NCBI GenBank assembly: GCA_030272785.1
Contig: JARXKM010000001.1
Span: 17,451-70,555, forward strand
Source: Pseudomonadota bacterium
Lineage (GTDB): Bacteria; Pseudomonadota; Gammaproteobacteria; Burkholderiales; Burkholderiaceae_D
DNA: 53,105 bases
Direction of reading: 5' to 3'
Shown here piece by piece: positions 76-48,237 of the stretch. The stretch's first letter is position 1; every line of letters begins with the position of its first letter. The notes under the pieces were generated by a model, which saw only the letters and a list, made by a program, of their open reading frames with translations, was not told where the DNA came from and ran no database searches. The translations under genes and the position numbers were made by a program.

Positions 76-105
76 GGGGGTCAGTGCCGGCATTCGTACA
101 CGGGC
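76..105 (+). repeat. single GGGGTCAG-type intergenic repeat (subfamily A)
   Basis: The sequence GGGGGTCAGTGCCGGC followed by ATTCGTACACGGGC matches the repeats at 14.8-15.0 kb except for one base (CATTCG instead of CAATCG) near the middle. It lies 3' of the minus-strand HD-GYP gene. A GACCCGGGGGTC palindrome overlaps its head. Confidence 0.75.
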
Positions 106-10780: not shown

Positions 10781-11941
10781 ATGAAAAAATCCGCGCAGAC
10801 CACGCTGATCCATAGCGACTACGCCGCGCCGGAGGGCTTCGCCGCCTATCCGACCGCGATCCACCATGCCTCGACGGTGCTGTTCAAGGACGTCGCGGCG
10901 ATGCGCTCGGGCCAGTGGAAAGAGAAGAGCGCCTATACCTACGGGCTGCACGGCACGCCGACCACGTTCACCCTGGAAGCGCGGCTGGCCGAAATCGAGG
11001 GCGGCAGCTTCTGCCTGCTGGCGCCGAGCGGGCTGGCGGCGATCGCCATGGTCGACTTCGCGCTGCTCAAGACCGGCGACGACGTGCTCTTGCCCGACAA
11101 CGTCTACAACCCGAACCGCGAGCTGGGCAACTGGCTCACGCGCGACTTCGGCATCAGCGCGCGCTACTACGATCCGCTGGCCGGCGCCGCCATCGCCGAG
11201 CTGATTTTGCCCAACACGAAGCTGATCTGGACCGAGGCGCCCGGCTCGGTGTCGATGGAAGTGCCGGACCTGCCGGCGATCTGCAAGGCGGCCCACGACA
11301 GGGGCGTGCTGGTCGCGCTCGACAACACCTGGTCGGGCGGACTGGCGCTGCGCGGCTTCGATCTGGGCGTCGACATCATCATGCAGGCGCTCACCAAGTA
11401 CCAGTCGGGCGGCTCGGACGTGCTGATGGGCGCCCTGATCACGCGCGAGCGCGCGCTCAACGACCGCCTGGCGCTGGCGCATATGCGCCTCGGCATGGGT
11501 GTCAGTCCCGACGATGCCTACCTGGTGATGCGCGGCCTGCCGAGCATGAAGCTGCGCCTCGAGGCGCACGACGCCAGCGCGCGCCAGGTGGCCGCGTGGC
11601 TCAAGGGGCGCGCCGAAATCAGCAAGGTGCTGCACCCGGCGTTCACCGACTGCCCCGGCCACGACATCTGGAAGCGCGATTTCCGCGGCGCCGGCGGCTT
11701 GTTCTCGGTGCTGTTCGATGCCCGCTACAGCGAAGCGCAGACCGACCGCTTCGTCGACCAGCTCGCATTGTTCGGCCTCGGTTACAGCTGGGGCGGCGCC
11801 AACAGCCTGGTGATGCCGTACCGGATCCAGGCGATGCGGCGCGGCTGGAGCGACGCCGGCATGCTGGTGCGCTTTAACATCGGCCTGGAAGACACGGCCG
11901 ACCTGATCGCCGACATCGAACAGGCGCTCGGCGTCCTGTAA
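10781..11941 (+). CDS. metC: cystathionine beta-lyase (Cys/Met metabolism PLP enzyme)
   Basis: The enzyme cleaves cystathionine to homocysteine, pyruvate and ammonia in methionine synthesis. It has 386 residues, normal for the Cys/Met metabolism PLP family. The cofactor-binding segment reads DNTWSGGLALRGFDLGVDI, then ALTKYQSGGSDVLMG, where the Lys should bind pyridoxal phosphate. EKSAYTYGLHGTPTTFTLE and FSVLF segments are also typical. The TWSGG and TKYQSGGSD forms point to MetC rather than cystathionine gamma-synthase. The track's GTG start lies inside rimO; the ATG at 10781 is the better start. It converges with cheV, leaving a 30-bp gap that carries a GGTCAGACCCC fragment. Confidence 0.88.
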   Translation: MKKSAQTTLIHSDYAAPEGFAAYPTAIHHASTVLFKDVAAMRSGQWKEKSAYTYGLHGTPTTFTLEARLAEIEGGSFCLLAPSGLAAIAMVDFALLKTGDDVLLPDNVYNPNRELGNWLTRDFGISARYYDPLAGAAIAELILPNTKLIWTEAPGSVSMEVPDLPAICKAAHDRGVLVALDNTWSGGLALRGFDLGVDIIMQALTKYQSGGSDVLMGALITRERALNDRLALAHMRLGMGVSPDDAYLVMRGLPSMKLRLEAHDASARQVAAWLKGRAEISKVLHPAFTDCPGHDIWKRDFRGAGGLFSVLFDARYSEAQTDRFVDQLALFGLGYSWGGANSLVMPYRIQAMRRGWSDAGMLVRFNIGLEDTADLIADIEQALGVL

Positions 11942-11943
11942 TC

Positions 11944-11957
11944 GGTCAGACCCCGGC
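11944..11957. repeat. GGTCAGACCCC fragment between convergent metC and cheV
   Basis: The 30-bp gap between these convergent genes holds GGTCAGACCCCGGC, the reverse complement of GCCGGGGTCTGACC. It resembles the heads of the larger repeats near 14.8 and 46.3 kb and could be a decayed copy. It is too short to be sure. Confidence 0.4.
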
Positions 11958-14071: not shown

Positions 14072-14812
14072 ATGAGCGAACCCATCCATTTATCCGGCCG
14101 GGCGCTGGTCGGCTGCGCCGGCTGGACCATTCCGCGCGCCGACGCGCCGGCGTTTCCCGTCGACGGCAGCCACCTGGAGCGCTATGCGGCGCGCTTTCCC
14201 GTCGTCGAGATCAACTCGAGCTTTCATCGTCCGCACCGGCCGGCGACCTATGTGCGCTGGGCTGCCAGCGTGCCGGCCGGGTTCCGCTTCGCGGTCAAGC
14301 TGCCGCGCACCATCACGCATGATCGGCGGCTGGCCGGCATCGATGCGCCGCTGCACCAGTTCGCCGCCGAGGCCGGCGCACTGGGCGACAAGCTCGGCTG
14401 CGTCCTGGTGCAACTGCCGCCGTCGCTGCCATTCGCGCCGGCGCTGGCGGCCGACTTCTTCGCGCGGCTGCGGCAATCGTTCGGCTGCATGATCGCCTGC
14501 GAAGCGCGCCATCCCAGCTGGTTCGGTGTAGCGGCCAGTGCCCTGCTGCGCGCGGGTGCCATCACCCGGGTGATCGCCGACCCCGCCAAGGGCCAGCCTG
14601 GCGCACACGAGCCGACCACGGCCGAGCTGTACGTCCGCCTGCACGGTACGCCACGCGTGTACTACTCGGCGTACCGGCCCGACTACCTGGCGCAGCTGGC
14701 GCGCGACATGGCCGTGCACACCGGCGCCGGCCGCACCGTCTGGTGCATCTTCGACAACACCGCCGCCGGTGCCGCAACGCCGAACGCGCTCGCCGTGCTG
14801 GCGCAGCTCTGA
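14072..14812 (+). CDS. DUF72 (YecE-like) protein
   Basis: A 246-residue member of DUF72, a TIM-barrel-like family of unknown function. Typical segments are VGCAGWTIP at the N-terminus, FPVVEINSSFHRPHRPATYVRWAASVPAGFRFAVKLPRTITH, LGCVLVQLPPSLPF and ELYVRLHGTPRVYYSAY. Translation starts at the ATG at 14072. It diverges from trxC and converges on the signalling operon. Repeat array A begins six bases after its stop. Confidence 0.85.
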   Translation: MSEPIHLSGRALVGCAGWTIPRADAPAFPVDGSHLERYAARFPVVEINSSFHRPHRPATYVRWAASVPAGFRFAVKLPRTITHDRRLAGIDAPLHQFAAEAGALGDKLGCVLVQLPPSLPFAPALAADFFARLRQSFGCMIACEARHPSWFGVAASALLRAGAITRVIADPAKGQPGAHEPTTAELYVRLHGTPRVYYSAYRPDYLAQLARDMAVHTGAGRTVWCIFDNTAAGAATPNALAVLAQL

Positions 14813-14818
14813 ACCCCT

Positions 14819-14965
14819 GGGGTCAGTGCCGGCAATCGTACACGAGCCCATCCGTAGCGCCGTCCACCCAGGGGTCAGTGCCGGCAATCGTACACGAGCC
14901 CATCCGCAGCGCCGGTGTGTCCTGGATAGTGATGAGGCCGTGTACGATTGCCGGCACTGACCCCC
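14819..14965. repeat. repeat array A: two direct copies and one inverted copy
   Basis: Copies at 14819-14862 and 14871-14914 share 43 of 44 bases (GGGGTCAGTGCCGGCAATCG, then TACACGAGCCCATCCG, and so on; the one change is GTAGC/GCAGC) with a 52-bp period. An inverted copy of the first 26 or so bases lies at 14937-14965. The array fills the gap between the convergent DUF72 and GGDEF-EAL genes. Each copy contains the 8-bp palindrome TGCCGGCA. Copies facing each other could fold into a long stem in either transcript. No ORF or transposase is associated. Confidence 0.9.
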
Positions 14966-15000
14966 GGGTGCCGGTTATGCCCCTCCGGGATGGTTGGCGC

Positions 15001-17553
15001 TCAGTCGCTCAGCGCCATCGAAACGGTGCCGTGCACGCGCGCGTGCTGACGGAAGGCGTCGCGCACGCTGGTGCGCAAGGTGACGTCGTGCCACGGCTTG
15101 GTGTAGAAGCGGTCGACCGCGCCGCGGTTGACAGCGGCCATGATCGTCGCCAGGTCGCTCTGGCCCGATACAACGATGCGGTAGGTGTCCGGGTACATAT
15201 CCTTGACGCAGTCGCACAAGGCGGTGCCGCTGATGCCCGCCGTCAGCTGTTCGCAGACGATCACCTGCACCTGGTGCAGCGCCAGCAGCTCGAACGCTTC
15301 ACTGGCCGAGCCGGCCACCAGGATCCGGTAGCCGTCCGGCCGCAGCAGCGCCGTCAAGGCGACCCGCACGCCGTCGTCTTCGTCGACCAACAACACCGTC
15401 TTGTAGTCGGCCAGCAGTTCGCTGTCGAGCGCGCACATGCGCTTGTTGTCGCGCAGCAGCAGGTCGAGCTCGGCCGCCGGCAGCGCCTCACTGAAGAAGT
15501 GGCCCTGGATATGGTCGCAGCGCTGGCGCCGCAGGTAGGCCAGCTGCGCCGCCGTTTCCACCCCTTCGGCGACGACGTCGAGCCGCAGGTGGTGCGCCAT
15601 GCCGATGATCGCGCAGGTGATCGCCGCATCGTCCGGATTGGAAGTCACCTCGCGGATGAAGGCGATGTCAATCTTCAGCGTGTCGATCGGGAAGCTGCGC
15701 AGGTAGGCCAGGCTCGAATAGCCGGTGCCGAAGTCGTCGATCGACACCTGCACGCCGAGCTTCTTGAGGTTGCGCAGCGTGTCGATGGTGCGGTCGGTAT
15801 TGTCCATCAGCGAGCCTTCGGTCAGCTCCAGGTCGAGCAGGCCGGCGGCGATGCGGTGCTCGCTGAGCGCGGCGATCACGTCCGCTTCCAGGTTGCCTTC
15901 GATGAACTGGCGACGCGACACGTTCACCGACATCTGCACCGGCACGATCGCCGCGGCGATCCAGGCGCCGATCTGGCGGCACGCGGTGGCGATCACCCAG
16001 GCGCCGACCGGCACGATCAGGCCGATCTCCTCGAGCACGCCGACAAAGCTGTGCGGCATCACCAGCCCGTGGCCGGGACGGTTCCAGCGCAGCAGCGCTT
16101 CGACGCCGGTGATGCGCCCGCTGTCGAGCGCAACCTTGGGCTGGTAGTGCAGCACGAATTCCTCGCGCTCGACGGCGTCGCGCAGCGCCCGTTCCAGCTC
16201 CAGCCGGGCCAGCACGTCGGTGTTCATCTGGGCGGTGAAAAAGCAGAACGTGTCGCGCCCGGCGTGCTTGGCCCGGTACATCGCCGTGTCGGCGTACCTG
16301 ATCAGGGTGTCCGGATCGGAGGCGTCGTCGGGGTGGATGGTGATGCCGATGCTGGCGCTCACGCTCAGCTTGTGGCCGTGCACCAGGAACGGCGCGCGCA
16401 GCGCCTCGCCGACCTTGGCGGCGACCATGCCGGCGCCTTGCTGGATGCCGTGGGCGACCATGATCAGCGCGAATTCGTCGCCGCCCAGGCGCCCGACGGT
16501 GTCGCGCACCCGCACGCACTGCAGCAGCCGGTCGCCCACTTCGACCAGCAGGGCGTCGCCGACCGCGTGGCCGAGCGTGTCGTTGACATCCTTGAAGCGG
16601 TCCAGGTCGATGAACATCACCGCCACCTGCCAGCTGCTGTCGGCGTCGCTGGCCATCGCCAGGGTCTTCTTGAGCGTCTCGTAGAACAGCAGCCGGTTCG
16701 GCAGGCTGGTGAGGGCGTCGTAGTGCGCCATGTGGTGCAGGCGCTGCTCGGCCTGCTTGCGTTCGCTGATGTCGCGCAGCACGCCGACGATGATCCACTC
16801 ATCGTCGAAAAAGTGGGCCTGGCGGTGCACCTCGACCGCCAGCTGACTGCCGTCCTTTCGCTCGACCTGGATCTCGGTGATCTTCTTGGCGCGCGGCCCT
16901 TCCTGCGTCGGGTCGTCGATGCTGGCGATGTCCTCGGCCGACAGCATGCCGATCTGGCGCGGCCCGATGCGCAGCAATTCCTCGCGCGTGTAGCCGAGCA
17001 TCTCGCAGGCGGTGGTGTTGACCTCGACGAACAGCATGCTGCTGCGCTGGACCAGGAAGATCGCCTCGGCGGTGGCGTCCATCGCGCTGCGAAAACGCTG
17101 CAGTTCGGCGGTGCGGGCGCGCACTTTCTGCTCGAGGATGTCGCCCTGGCGCTGCAGCAGGTCGCCGTAGGCCTTCAGGCGCAGCAGGTTGCGCACCCGC
17201 AGCCACAACTCGGTGCGGTCGACCGGCTTGGTGAGAAACTCCTCGGCGCCGGCGCGCAAGCCTTCCATGCGCGCGCCGCGGTCGACCAGCGCGGTGAGCA
17301 TGATGATGGGGATGTTGGCGGTGAGCGCATTGGCCTTGAGCGCGGTGGCCACCTGGTAGCCGTTCATGCCCGGCATCATGATGTCGAGCAGGATCAGGTC
17401 CGGCTTGCGCTCGGCCACCATCGCCAGCGCCTGTTCGCCGCTGGCGGCGCAGCTGGTGCGGTAGCCTTCCGGCTTGAGCAGCGCTTCCATCAGGCGCAGG
17501 TTGACCGCCTCGTCGTCGACGATCAGGATGGCGGGCGCGCCGGCCTCGCTCAT
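15001..17553 (-). CDS. REC-PAS-GGDEF-EAL-REC cyclic-di-GMP signalling protein
   Basis: An 850-residue cytoplasmic protein. Domain order: receiver (about 8-125, phosphoacceptor D57 in DLILLDIMMPGMNG), coiled linker, PAS (about 150-270), GGDEF (about 275-440), EAL (about 450-700) and a second receiver-like domain (about 718-840). The GGDEF site is canonical (GRLGGDEF, 357-361), with an intact RxxD inhibitory I-site (RVRD, 348-351). EAL residues look complete (VEALLRW, SVNVSRRQF, LELTEGSLM, SIDDFGTGYSSL, KIDI, AEGVET), so both synthesis and hydrolysis of c-di-GMP are possible. The last receiver has Glu768 where the phosphoacceptor Asp should be. The ATG overlaps the stop of the upstream receiver gene by four bases; the longer track start is a shadow. 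Confidence 0.93.
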   Translation of the reverse strand: MSEAGAPAILIVDDEAVNLRLMEALLKPEGYRTSCAASGEQALAMVAERKPDLILLDIMMPGMNGYQVATALKANALTANIPIIMLTALVDRGARMEGLRAGAEEFLTKPVDRTELWLRVRNLLRLKAYGDLLQRQGDILEQKVRARTAELQRFRSAMDATAEAIFLVQRSSMLFVEVNTTACEMLGYTREELLRIGPRQIGMLSAEDIASIDDPTQEGPRAKKITEIQVERKDGSQLAVEVHRQAHFFDDEWIIVGVLRDISERKQAEQRLHHMAHYDALTSLPNRLLFYETLKKTLAMASDADSSWQVAVMFIDLDRFKDVNDTLGHAVGDALLVEVGDRLLQCVRVRDTVGRLGGDEFALIMVAHGIQQGAGMVAAKVGEALRAPFLVHGHKLSVSASIGITIHPDDASDPDTLIRYADTAMYRAKHAGRDTFCFFTAQMNTDVLARLELERALRDAVEREEFVLHYQPKVALDSGRITGVEALLRWNRPGHGLVMPHSFVGVLEEIGLIVPVGAWVIATACRQIGAWIAAAIVPVQMSVNVSRRQFIEGNLEADVIAALSEHRIAAGLLDLELTEGSLMDNTDRTIDTLRNLKKLGVQVSIDDFGTGYSSLAYLRSFPIDTLKIDIAFIREVTSNPDDAAITCAIIGMAHHLRLDVVAEGVETAAQLAYLRRQRCDHIQGHFFSEALPAAELDLLLRDNKRMCALDSELLADYKTVLLVDEDDGVRVALTALLRPDGYRILVAGSASEAFELLALHQVQVIVCEQLTAGISGTALCDCVKDMYPDTYRIVVSGQSDLATIMAAVNRGAVDRFYTKPWHDVTLRTSVRDAFRQHARVHGTVSMALSD

Positions 17554-17927
17554 GCCGGTCCCGCCGGCGGCAGCAGGCTGTCGATCAGGTCGTACAGCTG
17601 GCGGTAGCGCAGCGGCTTGGCGATGTAGGCGTCGCAGCCGGCCTGCAGGCTCCTGACATGGTCGGCCTTCATCGCCAGCGCGGTCAGCGCGATCACCGGG
17701 ATGTTGGCGGTGGCCGGATCGTGCTTGAGCAGCACCGTCGCGTCCAGTCCGTCCATGCCGGGCAGCTGGATGTCCATCAGGATCAGGTCTGGCCGCGCCG
17801 TGCGCGCCAGTGCCACGCCGCATTCGGCGTCGGCCGCGCACAGCGCGTGGTGGCCGGCCTTTTCCAGCAACAGCACCGCCAGGCGCATGTTGGCCGAGTT
17901 GTCTTCGACGACCAGGATCGATGCCAT
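17550..17927 (-). CDS. single-domain response regulator (DivK/CheY-like)
   Basis: A 125-residue stand-alone receiver. It shows SILVVEDNSANMRLAV (acidic pocket), DLILMDIQLPGMDG (phosphoacceptor Asp), IPVIALTALAMK (conserved Thr/Ala switch position) and AYIAKPLRYRQL (conserved Lys). With no output domain it probably relays phosphate between the upstream hybrid kinase and the downstream c-di-GMP protein, whose start overlaps its stop (ATGA). Its Shine-Dalgarno (AGAGG) directly abuts three copies of a decamer repeat. Confidence 0.92.
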   Translation of the reverse strand: MASILVVEDNSANMRLAVLLLEKAGHHALCAADAECGVALARTARPDLILMDIQLPGMDGLDATVLLKHDPATANIPVIALTALAMKADHVRSLQAGCDAYIAKPLRYRQLYDLIDSLLPPAGPA

Positions 17928-17936
17928 CTTGCCTCT

Positions 17937-17966
17937 CTGTCTGTCTCTGTCTGTCTCTGTCTGTCT
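17937..17966 (-). repeat. decamer tandem repeat (3 copies) adjoining a ribosome-binding site
   Basis: On the plus strand CTGTCTGTCT occurs three times in a row, so the minus-strand message reads (AGACAGACAG)3 followed by AGAGGCAAG and the receiver-gene ATG. A decayed fourth unit (TTGTTTGTGC) extends towards the kinase stop codon. The repeat fills most of the 48-bp gap between these two operon genes. Confidence 0.85.
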
Positions 17967-17975
17967 TTGTTTGTG

Positions 17976-20504
<2,529 letters not shown>

Positions 20505-45154: not shown

Positions 45155-45270
45155 GGCGTTTCCTTATCGAATCGGTTATATTTTCTCCCCGCAGGCGCGA
45201 ACCATCAAACGAGAAAAATTAAGGCTATGAGCAAGAAAAACTTATGCTCGAATGTGAGCGGGGAGGAGGC

Positions 45271-46173
45271 ATGAAGCCGCTGCGCAGCCTGTCCGGGCTG
45301 ATCGACTTCGATTGCGCGGCGCGCTGGGGCAGTTTCAAGCTGGCCGCGCAGGAGCTGCACAAGACGCCGGCGGCGATCAGCCAGCAGGTCAAGCATCTGG
45401 AGGAAGGGGTCGGCTTCGCGCTGTTCATCCGCCATCCGCGTCATATCACGCTGACGGCCAAGGGGCAGGAGCTGGCGATCACGGTGCGGCGCCTGCTGGG
45501 CGATTTGCGCGGCAAGATCGGCGCGCTTCAAGGTGGCGACGAAGAGGCGATCCTACGCATCTCGACGACCCATTCGTTCGCCATCAAGTGGCTGGTGCCG
45601 CGCATGCACCGGTTCACCAAGCTGTATCCCGAGCTTGACATCCGGATCGACTCGAACGATGCGCCGGTCGACCTGGAGGACGACAGCATGGACGTCGCGG
45701 TGCGTTATGGACCGGTGATGGACAGCGATCCGGCGTTGTTGTTCCGCGAGCGCCTGATCGCCGTGTACAGCCCGGATTTGCTGGCCGAGGGGCAGCTCGA
45801 GCTGACGCTGGCCGACCTGCCGAATTTCCCGCTGCTGTATGAAAAGACGCCCGAATCGTGGCTGCAGCTGCTCAATGAAAACAAGGCGCTCAAGGGGAAA
45901 TACGATTTCTCGCGCGGCTACAGTCACTGGGGTGTGCTGGCGCAGGCGGCGGTGGCGGGGCAGGGGATTGCGCTGGTGGCGTACGGGATCGCGTTCCAGG
46001 ACATCCTCAAGGGATCGCTGCGGCAGATCAACTGTCGCAGCGCGCCGTTTGGCAGCGGCTACCGCTTCCTGGTCAACCGCAGCAAGGAAAGCATGCCCAA
46101 GGTGCAGCGCTTTCGCGCCTGGCTGGTGGCCGAAATGGACGACATGCGCCGCGCGCTCGCGCCTTCCCCCTAA
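45271..46173 (+). CDS. LysR-family transcriptional regulator (GcvA-like)
   Basis: A 300-residue LTTR with an N-terminal winged helix: LRSLSGLIDFDCAARWGSFKLAAQELHKTPAAISQQVKHLEEGVGFALFIRHPRHITLTAKGQ. An effector-binding domain follows with ILRISTTHSFAIKWLVPRMHRFTKLYPELDIRID and AVAGQGIALVAYGI. KTPAAISQQVKHLEE and DVAVRYG place it near the GcvA group. The start at 45271 follows the strong site GGGGAGGAGGC. LysR proteins usually regulate the divergent gene, here the epimerase-like gene. Repeat array C begins eight bases after its stop. Confidence 0.9.
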   Translation: MKPLRSLSGLIDFDCAARWGSFKLAAQELHKTPAAISQQVKHLEEGVGFALFIRHPRHITLTAKGQELAITVRRLLGDLRGKIGALQGGDEEAILRISTTHSFAIKWLVPRMHRFTKLYPELDIRIDSNDAPVDLEDDSMDVAVRYGPVMDSDPALLFRERLIAVYSPDLLAEGQLELTLADLPNFPLLYEKTPESWLQLLNENKALKGKYDFSRGYSHWGVLAQAAVAGQGIALVAYGIAFQDILKGSLRQINCRSAPFGSGYRFLVNRSKESMPKVQRFRAWLVAEMDDMRRALAPSP

Positions 46174-46181
46174 GCAATGCT

Positions 46182-46442
46182 GGGGTCAGGTCTGACATTC
46201 GGACAAAAAACCGGGGTCAGGTCTGACATTCGGACAAAAAACTGGGGTCAGGTCTGACATTCGGACAAATTTGACGGTTTCGGCGGCTGATCAGGTCGGT
46301 TGCCTGCCCCGGATGGGTGAGAAACCGCTGATCTGGCACGCCTGAGTCCGCGGAAATGTCCGATTGTCAGACCTGACCCCGGCAAAATGTCCGATTGTCA
46401 GACCTGACCCCGGCAAAAAGTCCGATTGTCAGACCTGACCCC
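46182..46442. repeat. repeat array C: three direct and three inverted 31-bp units
   Basis: Direct copies of GGGGTCAGGTCTGACATTCG plus GACAAAAAAC start at 46182, 46213 and 46244, an exact 31-bp period. Inverted copies end at 46380, 46411 and 46442, again 31 bp apart, and carry CAATCG where the left arm has CATTCG. About 85 bp of unique sequence separates the arms. The structure fills the gap between the convergent LysR and POT genes and could fold into a very long stem. Each unit contains the small dyad GTCAG-GT-CTGAC. The period leaves no room for CRISPR-type spacers. Confidence 0.95.
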
Positions 46443-46452
46443 ACTTGGTGGG

Positions 46453-47958
46453 TTACTTGACGCCGTGCATCAGTTTCTGGATCAACGGGGCGAGCAGCAG
46501 CAACAGGACGCCGCCTGCCATCAGCGACCAGAAGCCGAAGGTGTAGCCGCTCAGCGCCGAGGGCACCGACATGCCGGTCTCGCCGCTGACATAGCTGGCG
46601 AAGATGCCCGACAGGTTGTTGCCGATCCCCGTCGAGAGGAACCAGCCGCCCATGCCCAGACCCACCAGCCGGGTCGGCGCCAGCTTGGTGACCATCGACA
46701 GGCCGATCGGCGAGAGGCACAGCTCGCCTATCGATTGGATGCAGTACACCGCGAACAGCGTCCAGAACGGGATCTTGTTGTCGACGCCGACCAGGTGCGA
46801 CAGCGCATACATCAGCAGGCCGAAGGCGACTGCGTTGAAGATGATGCCTAGGCCGAATTTGCGCGGAATCGAGGGATTGACGTTGCGCTTGGCCAGCACC
46901 ACCCAGATCCAGGCGACAATCGGTGCGCAGACAATGATGGCGATCGAGTTGACGCTCTGGAACCAGGCGGTCGGGAATTCGAAGCTGCCCAGCCGGCGGT
47001 TGACGATGTTATCGGCCAGGAAGGTAAACGAACTGCCGGCCTGTTCGAAAAACATCCAGAACAGAATATTGAAGGCGAAGATGATCATCATGGCGATGGT
47101 CTTGTCGCGCGCGACTTTGCCTTCGCGGATACCTTCGATCATCAGCATGGCCGCCAGGATGACGAACAGGATCGTTAATACGACCTGCAGGTTATTGGCG
47201 CCGGCCTTGAGCAGGAAGTAGACGACCGGGATGACGAACAGCGCGCCGACCGCCACGAATACCATCCGCATCGGGCTTTGCGCGTCTGCTGCCGGCGCGC
47301 CGATGCCCTTGAGTGCCTTGCGGCCGATGGCAAACCAGACCAGGCTGATCAGCATGCCGACGCCGGAGGCGAAGAACACCACTTTATACGCCGGCGTGTC
47401 GCCGGTGTTGAATACCTGCTGCGCCAGGATCTGGGTCAGGATCGGGGCGATGAACGCGCCGGTATTGATGCCCATGTAGAAAATCGTGAAGCCGGAATCG
47501 CGGCGCGGGTCGCTGACCGAATACAGCTTGCCGACCATGGTCGAAATGTTCGGCTTGAACATGCCATTGCCGACGATGATGGTGGCCAGGCCGAGCTTGA
47601 AAACGTTCGGATCGGGGATGGTGATGGCGAACAGGCCGGCGGCCATGAAGGCGGCGCCGATCAGGATCGAACGCTGATAACCAATCACGCGGTCGGCGAC
47701 GTAACCGCCGAATACCGCGCCGGCATACACCAGCGCGAGGTAGGAGCCGTAGGTGAGGTTGGCATCGGCCTGTCCGGCAGCGGCGCCGGCGTAGAATTGG
47801 GTGACGATGTAGAGCACCAGTGCCCAGCGGATGCCGTAAAACGCGAAGCGTTCCCAGAATTCGGTCATGAACAACATCCACAGCGGACTTGGATGACCCA
47901 GGATCTGCTTGAATTCAGGTATGGCGACCGACTGGCCAGGTGTAACTGCACCGCTCAT
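46453..47958 (-). CDS. POT-family proton-dependent oligopeptide transporter
   Basis: A 501-residue peptide:proton symporter of the major facilitator superfamily with about 14 hydrophobic segments. The proton-coupling motif ExxER is visible in MTEFWERFAFYGIRW. GGYVADRVIGYQRSI (MFS loop) and GNGMFKPNISTMVGKLY followed by GFTIFYMGINTGAFIAPI are POT (PTR2) signatures. From the ATG at 47958, with GGGAGAACCC upstream, the length matches DtpA-type proteins. The track extends 37 codons too far. It diverges from ppnN and, like the two OPT genes, suggests strong capacity for peptide uptake. Confidence 0.92.
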   Translation of the reverse strand: MSGAVTPGQSVAIPEFKQILGHPSPLWMLFMTEFWERFAFYGIRWALVLYIVTQFYAGAAAGQADANLTYGSYLALVYAGAVFGGYVADRVIGYQRSILIGAAFMAAGLFAITIPDPNVFKLGLATIIVGNGMFKPNISTMVGKLYSVSDPRRDSGFTIFYMGINTGAFIAPILTQILAQQVFNTGDTPAYKVVFFASGVGMLISLVWFAIGRKALKGIGAPAADAQSPMRMVFVAVGALFVIPVVYFLLKAGANNLQVVLTILFVILAAMLMIEGIREGKVARDKTIAMMIIFAFNILFWMFFEQAGSSFTFLADNIVNRRLGSFEFPTAWFQSVNSIAIIVCAPIVAWIWVVLAKRNVNPSIPRKFGLGIIFNAVAFGLLMYALSHLVGVDNKIPFWTLFAVYCIQSIGELCLSPIGLSMVTKLAPTRLVGLGMGGWFLSTGIGNNLSGIFASYVSGETGMSVPSALSGYTFGFWSLMAGGVLLLLLAPLIQKLMHGVK

Positions 47959-48237
47959 GCGGGTTCTCCCGATTGTAGTAATGAATGGATAAATCATTTG
48001 GCGCTGTCGCGACCCCGAACCGTCGCAGGTTGTGCTGTTTGCCCGGGCCCTCGATGCCATTGGGCGCATTTTAATGTAAATCGGTCAGCGCCAGCGAACT
48101 TTTGCCATATGTGCTATTTACAGCGCGCCTGGCCTTGCGCACCGCCGCCGCAATCTGCAACCCAAAGTGCCGCCAGTTGTCGTATATTGGCATTGCAGGC
48201 TCGTTCGTTTTATAGAAACAGAAAAGGAATTCGCACC

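Follow-up and report, generated by a model that had tools for sequence, protein, structure and literature searches.

The closest described counterparts of the repeats analyzed here accompany the TIRYT transposases and their TIRtrons (Di Nocera et al. 2013; PMC3733652) and subclass 2.1 of the TnpAREP proteins (Quentin et al. 2018; PMC6006769). In both groups, a Y1 HuH transposase of nearly 300 amino acids carries a C-terminal HTH (HTH_28/HTH_23) and is flanked by inverted repeats of the form GGGG[AT][CG]A[CG] (GGGGWSAS). Some TIR families occur in dimers and clusters, and two TIRYTs of S. maltophilia are matched to two TIR families (PMC3733652). The HTH extension in subclass 2.1 is HTH_28, HTH_23, or DnaA-C; the 2018 survey reported this subclass to be without REP-like sequences and suggested that the HTH may not recognize the repeat, or else has evolved toward a new target (PMC6006769).

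Transposases of IS200/IS605 elements (IS608, ISDra2) have the same HuH-Y1 fold, but the proteins described below have an extra C-terminal HTH and are encoded by very few genes alongside hundreds of non-autonomous repeat copies. The known IS200/IS605 transposases read subterminal hairpins.

REPIN and REP-RAYT systems (Bertels and Rainey 2011, PMC3116915; Nunvar et al. 2013, PMC3686654) resemble the present case in having a RAYT gene flanked by a genome-dispersed repeat, one cognate RAYT per repeat family, inverted doublets at fixed spacing (70–71 nt for family A here), and several families per genome, with related RAYTs beside different repeats. The present repeats differ from them in lacking the 5' GTAG/GTGG tag, which is GGGG instead, and in single units that are not conserved palindromes. 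Bertels and Rainey also reported compensatory changes in the doublet hairpin (PMC3116915), which were undetected here.

We examined two repeat arrays, A and C, in a 53-kb stretch of DNA (the window) from a Massilia-like bacterium with a 5.4-Mb draft genome in 520 contigs. Very probably, A and C represent two related REPIN-like non-autonomous mobile repeat families, each spread by its own TIRYT/subclass 2.1 RAYT. In predicted domains and flanking repeats the two RAYTs match that group, and the head of the units, GGGGTCAG, conforms to GGGGWSAS. Unlike the 2018 account of subclass 2.1, the genome has hundreds of dispersed copies, and unlike the TIRYT and subclass 2.1 accounts, it has regular 3+3 tandem arrays with a 31-bp period. 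High-copy REPIN-like families are thereby added to a RAYT subclass reported in 2018 without REP-like repeats. Literature searches on the head sequence and on RAYTs in Massilia yielded nothing useful. The kind of element is known; what is new is evidence on how such families stay apart.

Repeat arrays A and C

The two arrays and their neighbors in the window are as follows.

77..100, + strand, A-type singleton unit, CATTCG form
14072..14812, + strand, DUF72 gene, upstream of array A and convergent partner
14819..14842, + strand, A-type unit 1, GGGGTCAGTGCCGGCAATCGTACA
14867..14968, no strand, A-type REPIN-like doublet, predicted as ssDNA to form a long hairpin (-43.6 kcal/mol, z -11.7)
14871..14894, + strand, A-type unit 2, pairing with unit 3 as a tail-to-tail doublet
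14941..14964, - strand, A-type unit 3, inverted (start 14964)
15001..18087, - strand, response regulator/PAS/GGDEF/EAL gene, other side of array A
45244..46173, + strand, LysR-type regulator gene, before array C
46182..46205, + strand, C-type unit 1, GGGGTCAGGTCTGACATTCGGACA
46213..46236, + strand, C-type unit 2 (31-bp period)
46244..46267, + strand, C-type unit 3
46268..46356, no strand, inner spacer of array C, 89 nt
46357..46380, - strand, C-type unit 4, inverted (start 46380)
46388..46411, - strand, C-type unit 5, inverted (start 46411)
46419..46442, - strand, C-type unit 6, inverted (start 46442)
46453..48069, - strand, POT-family transporter gene, other side of array C

The two arrays of related units first reported in a preliminary description are confirmed. 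Realignment of the A and C 25-mers again gave a match at 19 of 25 positions. Both arrays contain direct and inverted copies, and both lie between convergent genes, as described (DUF72 and EAL-GGDEF around A, LysR and POT transporter around C). The A/T variation noted at the same base, unit position 17, is true of both families, although array A itself is uniform, with CAATCG in three of three copies; the A-type CATTCG form is that of the singleton at position 77 and of further copies across the genome. Units 2 and 3 of array A are 70 nt apart, start to start, within the 70–71 nt usual for A doublets. The head GGGGTCAG occurs 10 times in the window, as compared with 1.5 expected, a count reached by no shuffle.

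Genome-wide distribution

Exact core copies number 192 for A and 227 for C across the genome, and 494 matches to GGGGTCAGNNCNGNCAWTCGNACA were counted when up to 2 mismatches were allowed (reversed control, 0). A census of clusters covered 0.95 of the 5.4 Mb, in a sample where contigs with matches were partly favored, and grouped 207 units into 72 clusters, 26 of them situated at contig ends. None of the 56 multi-unit clusters mixes A and C units (shuffled mean 38.8, minimum 28).

The layout of array C is that of a standard element, in which three direct units with a 31-bp period are followed by an inner spacer and three inverted units. Several intact copies of this 3+3 element occur, with highly diverged inner sequence and spacers of 79–101 nt. 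Family C also occurs in a second form, as short doublets with a spacing of 38–40 nt and a tail that is often GCACA or GAACA. Among longer A arrays, A+A+A-A- is the most frequent, and array A has this form without the final unit. Inverted doublets of A prefer a spacing of 70–71 nt (10 of 17), and those of C prefer 38–40 and 103–125. For direct copies the preferred spacings are 31, 41, and 52 bp (C) and 41–44, 52–54, and 61–64 bp (A), giving an impression of near-whole helical turns. A match between doublet arms in the A/T choice at position 17 was considered and dropped, since the left copy differs from the right one in 6 of 17 doublets for A and 8 of 25 for C.

Five A-type pairs in this genome (L117:3893, L124:9726, L156:3494, L158:13397, and L169:5385) are arranged head to head, the opposite of the usual doublet, with exactly one base between the heads, and form near-perfect palindromes of 49 nt.

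Cognate RAYT genes

A profile search with PF01797 identified four IS200-like Y1 transposase genes in the genome. One, encoding RAYT-C (L002, contig 223), has inverted C units on both sides, and another, encoding RAYT-A (L003, contig 229), has inverted A units on both sides; GGGGTCAG is present on either side of each gene. This arrangement, a Y1 gene between its own inverted units, is that of a RAYT gene and the repeats cognate to it. RAYT-A and RAYT-C are 57% identical, and both have a Y1 HuH domain (PF01797 scores 43.4 and 40.8 bits, cut-off 23). Their scores with the NCBIfam RAYT model, 70.3 and 79, fall just below its cut-off of 80. RAYT-C matches HTH_28 and HTH_23, both under the curated cut-offs; RAYT-A has no Pfam HTH match of its own and aligns with RAYT-C over the C-terminal HTH region. 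A structure model of the C-type RAYT of M. eurypsychrophila has a TnpAREP fold, with 4ER8 (a RAYT bound to a REP hairpin) as best PDB match. Its C-terminal helices span residues 240–249, 255–261, and 266–284, with block pLDDT values of 84–94.

The reading frame of RAYT-C enters the downstream C units (L002:1023-1084), such that the repeat encodes the last residues and the stop codon. The other two Y1/RAYT-like genes (L001:1174-1902 and L004:1450-2160; 242 and 236 amino acids) have no GGGGTCAG repeats alongside.

Relatives and intermediate cores

A search of bacterial genomes provided 80 RAYT loci, or 82 with the two from this genome. Inverted matching units with GGGGTCAG or a close-variant head flank the RAYT at 61 of the 82, and at 49 of 60 loci in a second, partly overlapping set. 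All 83 non-redundant loci have GTCA at unit positions 4–7, and the 5' arm is nearly invariant.

The preliminary description had proposed that A and C are kin and had made intermediate subfamilies in related genomes a test of this. These exist: the ladder of one-base changes from the C to the A core is complete, with every step flanking an actual RAYT.

GTCTGACA, starting from the C core, 11 loci
GTCCGACA, L321
TTCCGACA, L090
TGCCGACA, 6 loci
TGCCGGCA, the A end, this genome's own A

The A palindrome, TGCCGGCA, arises at the last single change, from the nonpalindromic TGCCGACA. Comparison of the cores and of the homologous RAYTs, each beside its own repeat type, supports the assignment of A and C to one superfamily.

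RAYT-A groups with the protein of Massilia psychrophila (L090) and RAYT-C with that of M. eurypsychrophila (L035). In the midpoint-rooted RAYT tree, A and C are located on opposite sides of the deepest split and are not nearest sisters. With this root the C-type core is found on either side of that split, and a C-like core is therefore probably ancestral. Among 97 family genomes sampled, just one other, that of the congener M. eurypsychrophila (G045), contains both repeats in number (106 and 148), together with both RAYT types. Its RAYT-A is flanked by TGCCGACA, while the genome holds 106 copies of TGCCGGCA and only 11 of TGCCGACA, so the cognate match is inexact there. M. psychrophila (G003) has a 71% identical RAYT-A homologue with TTCCGACA flanks and no copy of TGCCGGCA.

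M. eurypsychrophila has two C-type RAYTs (C1:91022 and C7:57577; L251 and L250), one with GGGG-headed and the other with GGTG-headed units; the head itself may have split here. Another repeat family, GGGGTCTGACCC...GGGTCAGACCCC, with a middle unlike those of A and C, is present in a few dozen copies at many places in G045 and G003. In the window, GGGGTCTGACCG (11935-11954, - strand) lies right past the end of a gene and is perhaps a remnant of the GGGGTCTGACCC family.

The LysR-POT junction

The LysR and POT genes are 279 nt apart here, as compared with 44 nt in the congener G070, which lacks array C at this junction and has there a degenerate copy of its own palindromic unit. G045 has another, minimal C-type doublet, with GGTG heads, at this place after its LysR gene. 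Three congeners thus have three different superfamily repeats behind the same LysR gene. This comparison fits mobile families in which the repeat next to related RAYTs changes, a pattern reported for Pseudomonas (PMC3686654). No clean empty site was found for array A, as the DUF72 and EAL genes are non-adjacent in congeners.

Tandem half-sites and the C-terminal HTH

The segment behind the GGGGTCAG head contains two tandem direct half-sites (GACAATC-GGACAT in C and GGCAATC-GTACAC in A). Their period is 8 nt for the majority of families and 7 nt for many from gammaproteobacteria (TTGCCTTTTGCC, TTTGATTTATGAT). These half-sites covary, the halves of one unit resembling each other more than halves taken from separate loci. 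In the ACA..ACA class, with a period of 8, the halves match at positions 13–14 with a frequency of 0.571 vs 0.435 (0 of 5000 shuffles as high), and in the other units, with a period of 7, 0.680 vs 0.499 shuffled (no shuffle as high); these shuffles leave some relatedness in. The covariation persists within clades (P 0.002–0.026).

Across 83 RAYTs, half-site divergence correlates best with divergence of the C-terminal HTH (r=0.68), followed by the linker (0.50) and HuH (0.27), and head divergence has the reverse order (HTH 0.03, linker 0.08, HuH 0.23). Half-sites favor the HTH over HuH in discordant triplets (0.74; bootstrap 0.61–0.85) and side with it in nearest-neighbor conflicts by 26 to 13 (39 decided); where HTH and HuH conflict, the head sides with HuH. 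For the first 58 loci, the HTH signal was present separately in the A clade and the gamma clade, and the nearest-neighbor test was tied, 13 to 14. Half-site divergence in 40 close, disjoint pairs is predicted alike by all three regions (HuH 0.55, linker 0.57, HTH 0.57), so shared time could account for the link between half-sites and HTH there. In the triplet test the linker comes close to the HTH (HTH correct in 0.57, CI 0.47–0.67). Residues best associated with the half-sites include 264, 267, 268, and 272, at the turn of the HTH and where its last helix begins.

These correlations suggest a two-part recognition, with sister pairs alone leaving the domains unseparated. The nearly fixed head common to all families would be the guide or cleavage tag of the catalytic HuH domain, and the two variable half-sites would be read by the C-terminal HTH, for which the chances range from about even to likely. 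The RAYT would mobilize the units of its own repeat family, and joint change of half-sites and HTH would split one family into non-mixing repeat/RAYT pairs. Of the suggestions made in 2018, the half-site data favor an HTH that evolved to recognize a new target. For subclass 2.1 at large, we consider it evenly balanced whether family identity resides in half-sites read by the HTH on duplex DNA, with HuH handling a universal GGGGTCA tag and new exclusive families arising through joint HTH and half-site change rather than hairpin-arm change. If this is true, the C direct-copy spacings of 31, 41, and 52 bp would be compatible with binding to duplex DNA along a single helix face. With two non-mixing families and their homologous RAYTs in one genome, a ladder of intermediates in relatives, and a candidate domain for the reading, domain swaps can test how a RAYT picks out its own repeats in a cell that also contains a sister family.

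Alternative explanations

A match at only 19 of 25 positions, with differing middles, could be taken for coincidence or convergence; the probability of this is negligible given that the cognate RAYTs are homologous, and the complete one-base ladder refutes it. Nor is it at all probable that the repeats are selected regulatory elements between convergent genes, such as bidirectional terminators or 3' mRNA-stabilizing hairpins, rather than mobile repeats. Both arrays do lie between convergent genes, as do 15 of 39 placeable clusters vs 16% of neighboring ORF pairs (by approximate gene calls), and the array-level hairpins are strong. However, 20 of the 39 clusters lie between tandem genes, scans of arrays A and C for terminators and promoters found none, and the exact RAYT pairing and the absence of array C from a congener fit mobile repeats. 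Rfam returned six matches (E up to 1), all far under gathering scores and mostly to microRNA models, whose fit reflects no more than a long hairpin. A secondary regulatory role may have followed insertion.

Closer to the preliminary description is an explanation by one family whose hairpin or dyad is selected, the middle segment changing with compensating palindromy and the RAYT recognizing units as folded ssDNA, in the manner of canonical REPs. In its favor, family A has a middle that forms a perfect 8-bp palindrome, and folding exceeds that of shuffles for the A unit (z -2.9) and is strong for entire doublets and arrays; G070 also has true palindromes. Against it, single C and gammaproteobacterial units fold with z of -0.7 and +0.7, respectively, and a search for left/right compensation between doublet arms found none. 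Among the 81 unique units that flank RAYTs, shuffling the 3' arms leaves the pairing of the GTCAG/CTGAC dyad unchanged (0.741 vs 0.741, P=1.0), and no covariation was evident for the A-type TGCC/GGCA dyad (0.336 vs 0.325 shuffled, P=0.18) or an alternative hairpin, 9–14/18–23 (0.584 vs 0.589, P=0.71). The compensating palindromy is thus not borne out, and the covariation sought across the middle dyad is found between the tandem direct half-sites instead. We regard this explanation as unlikely and its single-unit hairpin version as disfavored; the preliminary interpretation as a whole is partly supported, and two mobile families, each with its own RAYT, is the reading we prefer. A bulged hairpin gave P=0.02 for covariation over all units in one test, a signal that vanished within clades, and was rejected.

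The genome of G070 contains ~560 palindromic units, nearly all 27 nt in a sample and mostly GGGGTCAGGTCCGCAGGACCAGACCCC (z -4.7), with the superfamily head at one end and its complement at the other. One palindromic unit, with a compensated pair, GGTTC/GAACC, is beside a partial RAYT frame. The folded form thus occurs in the superfamily, yet it does not describe A and C. The RAYT match in G070 extends over only ~185 residues, and some of its palindromic units are paired 41–58 nt apart (L272-L291, L255).
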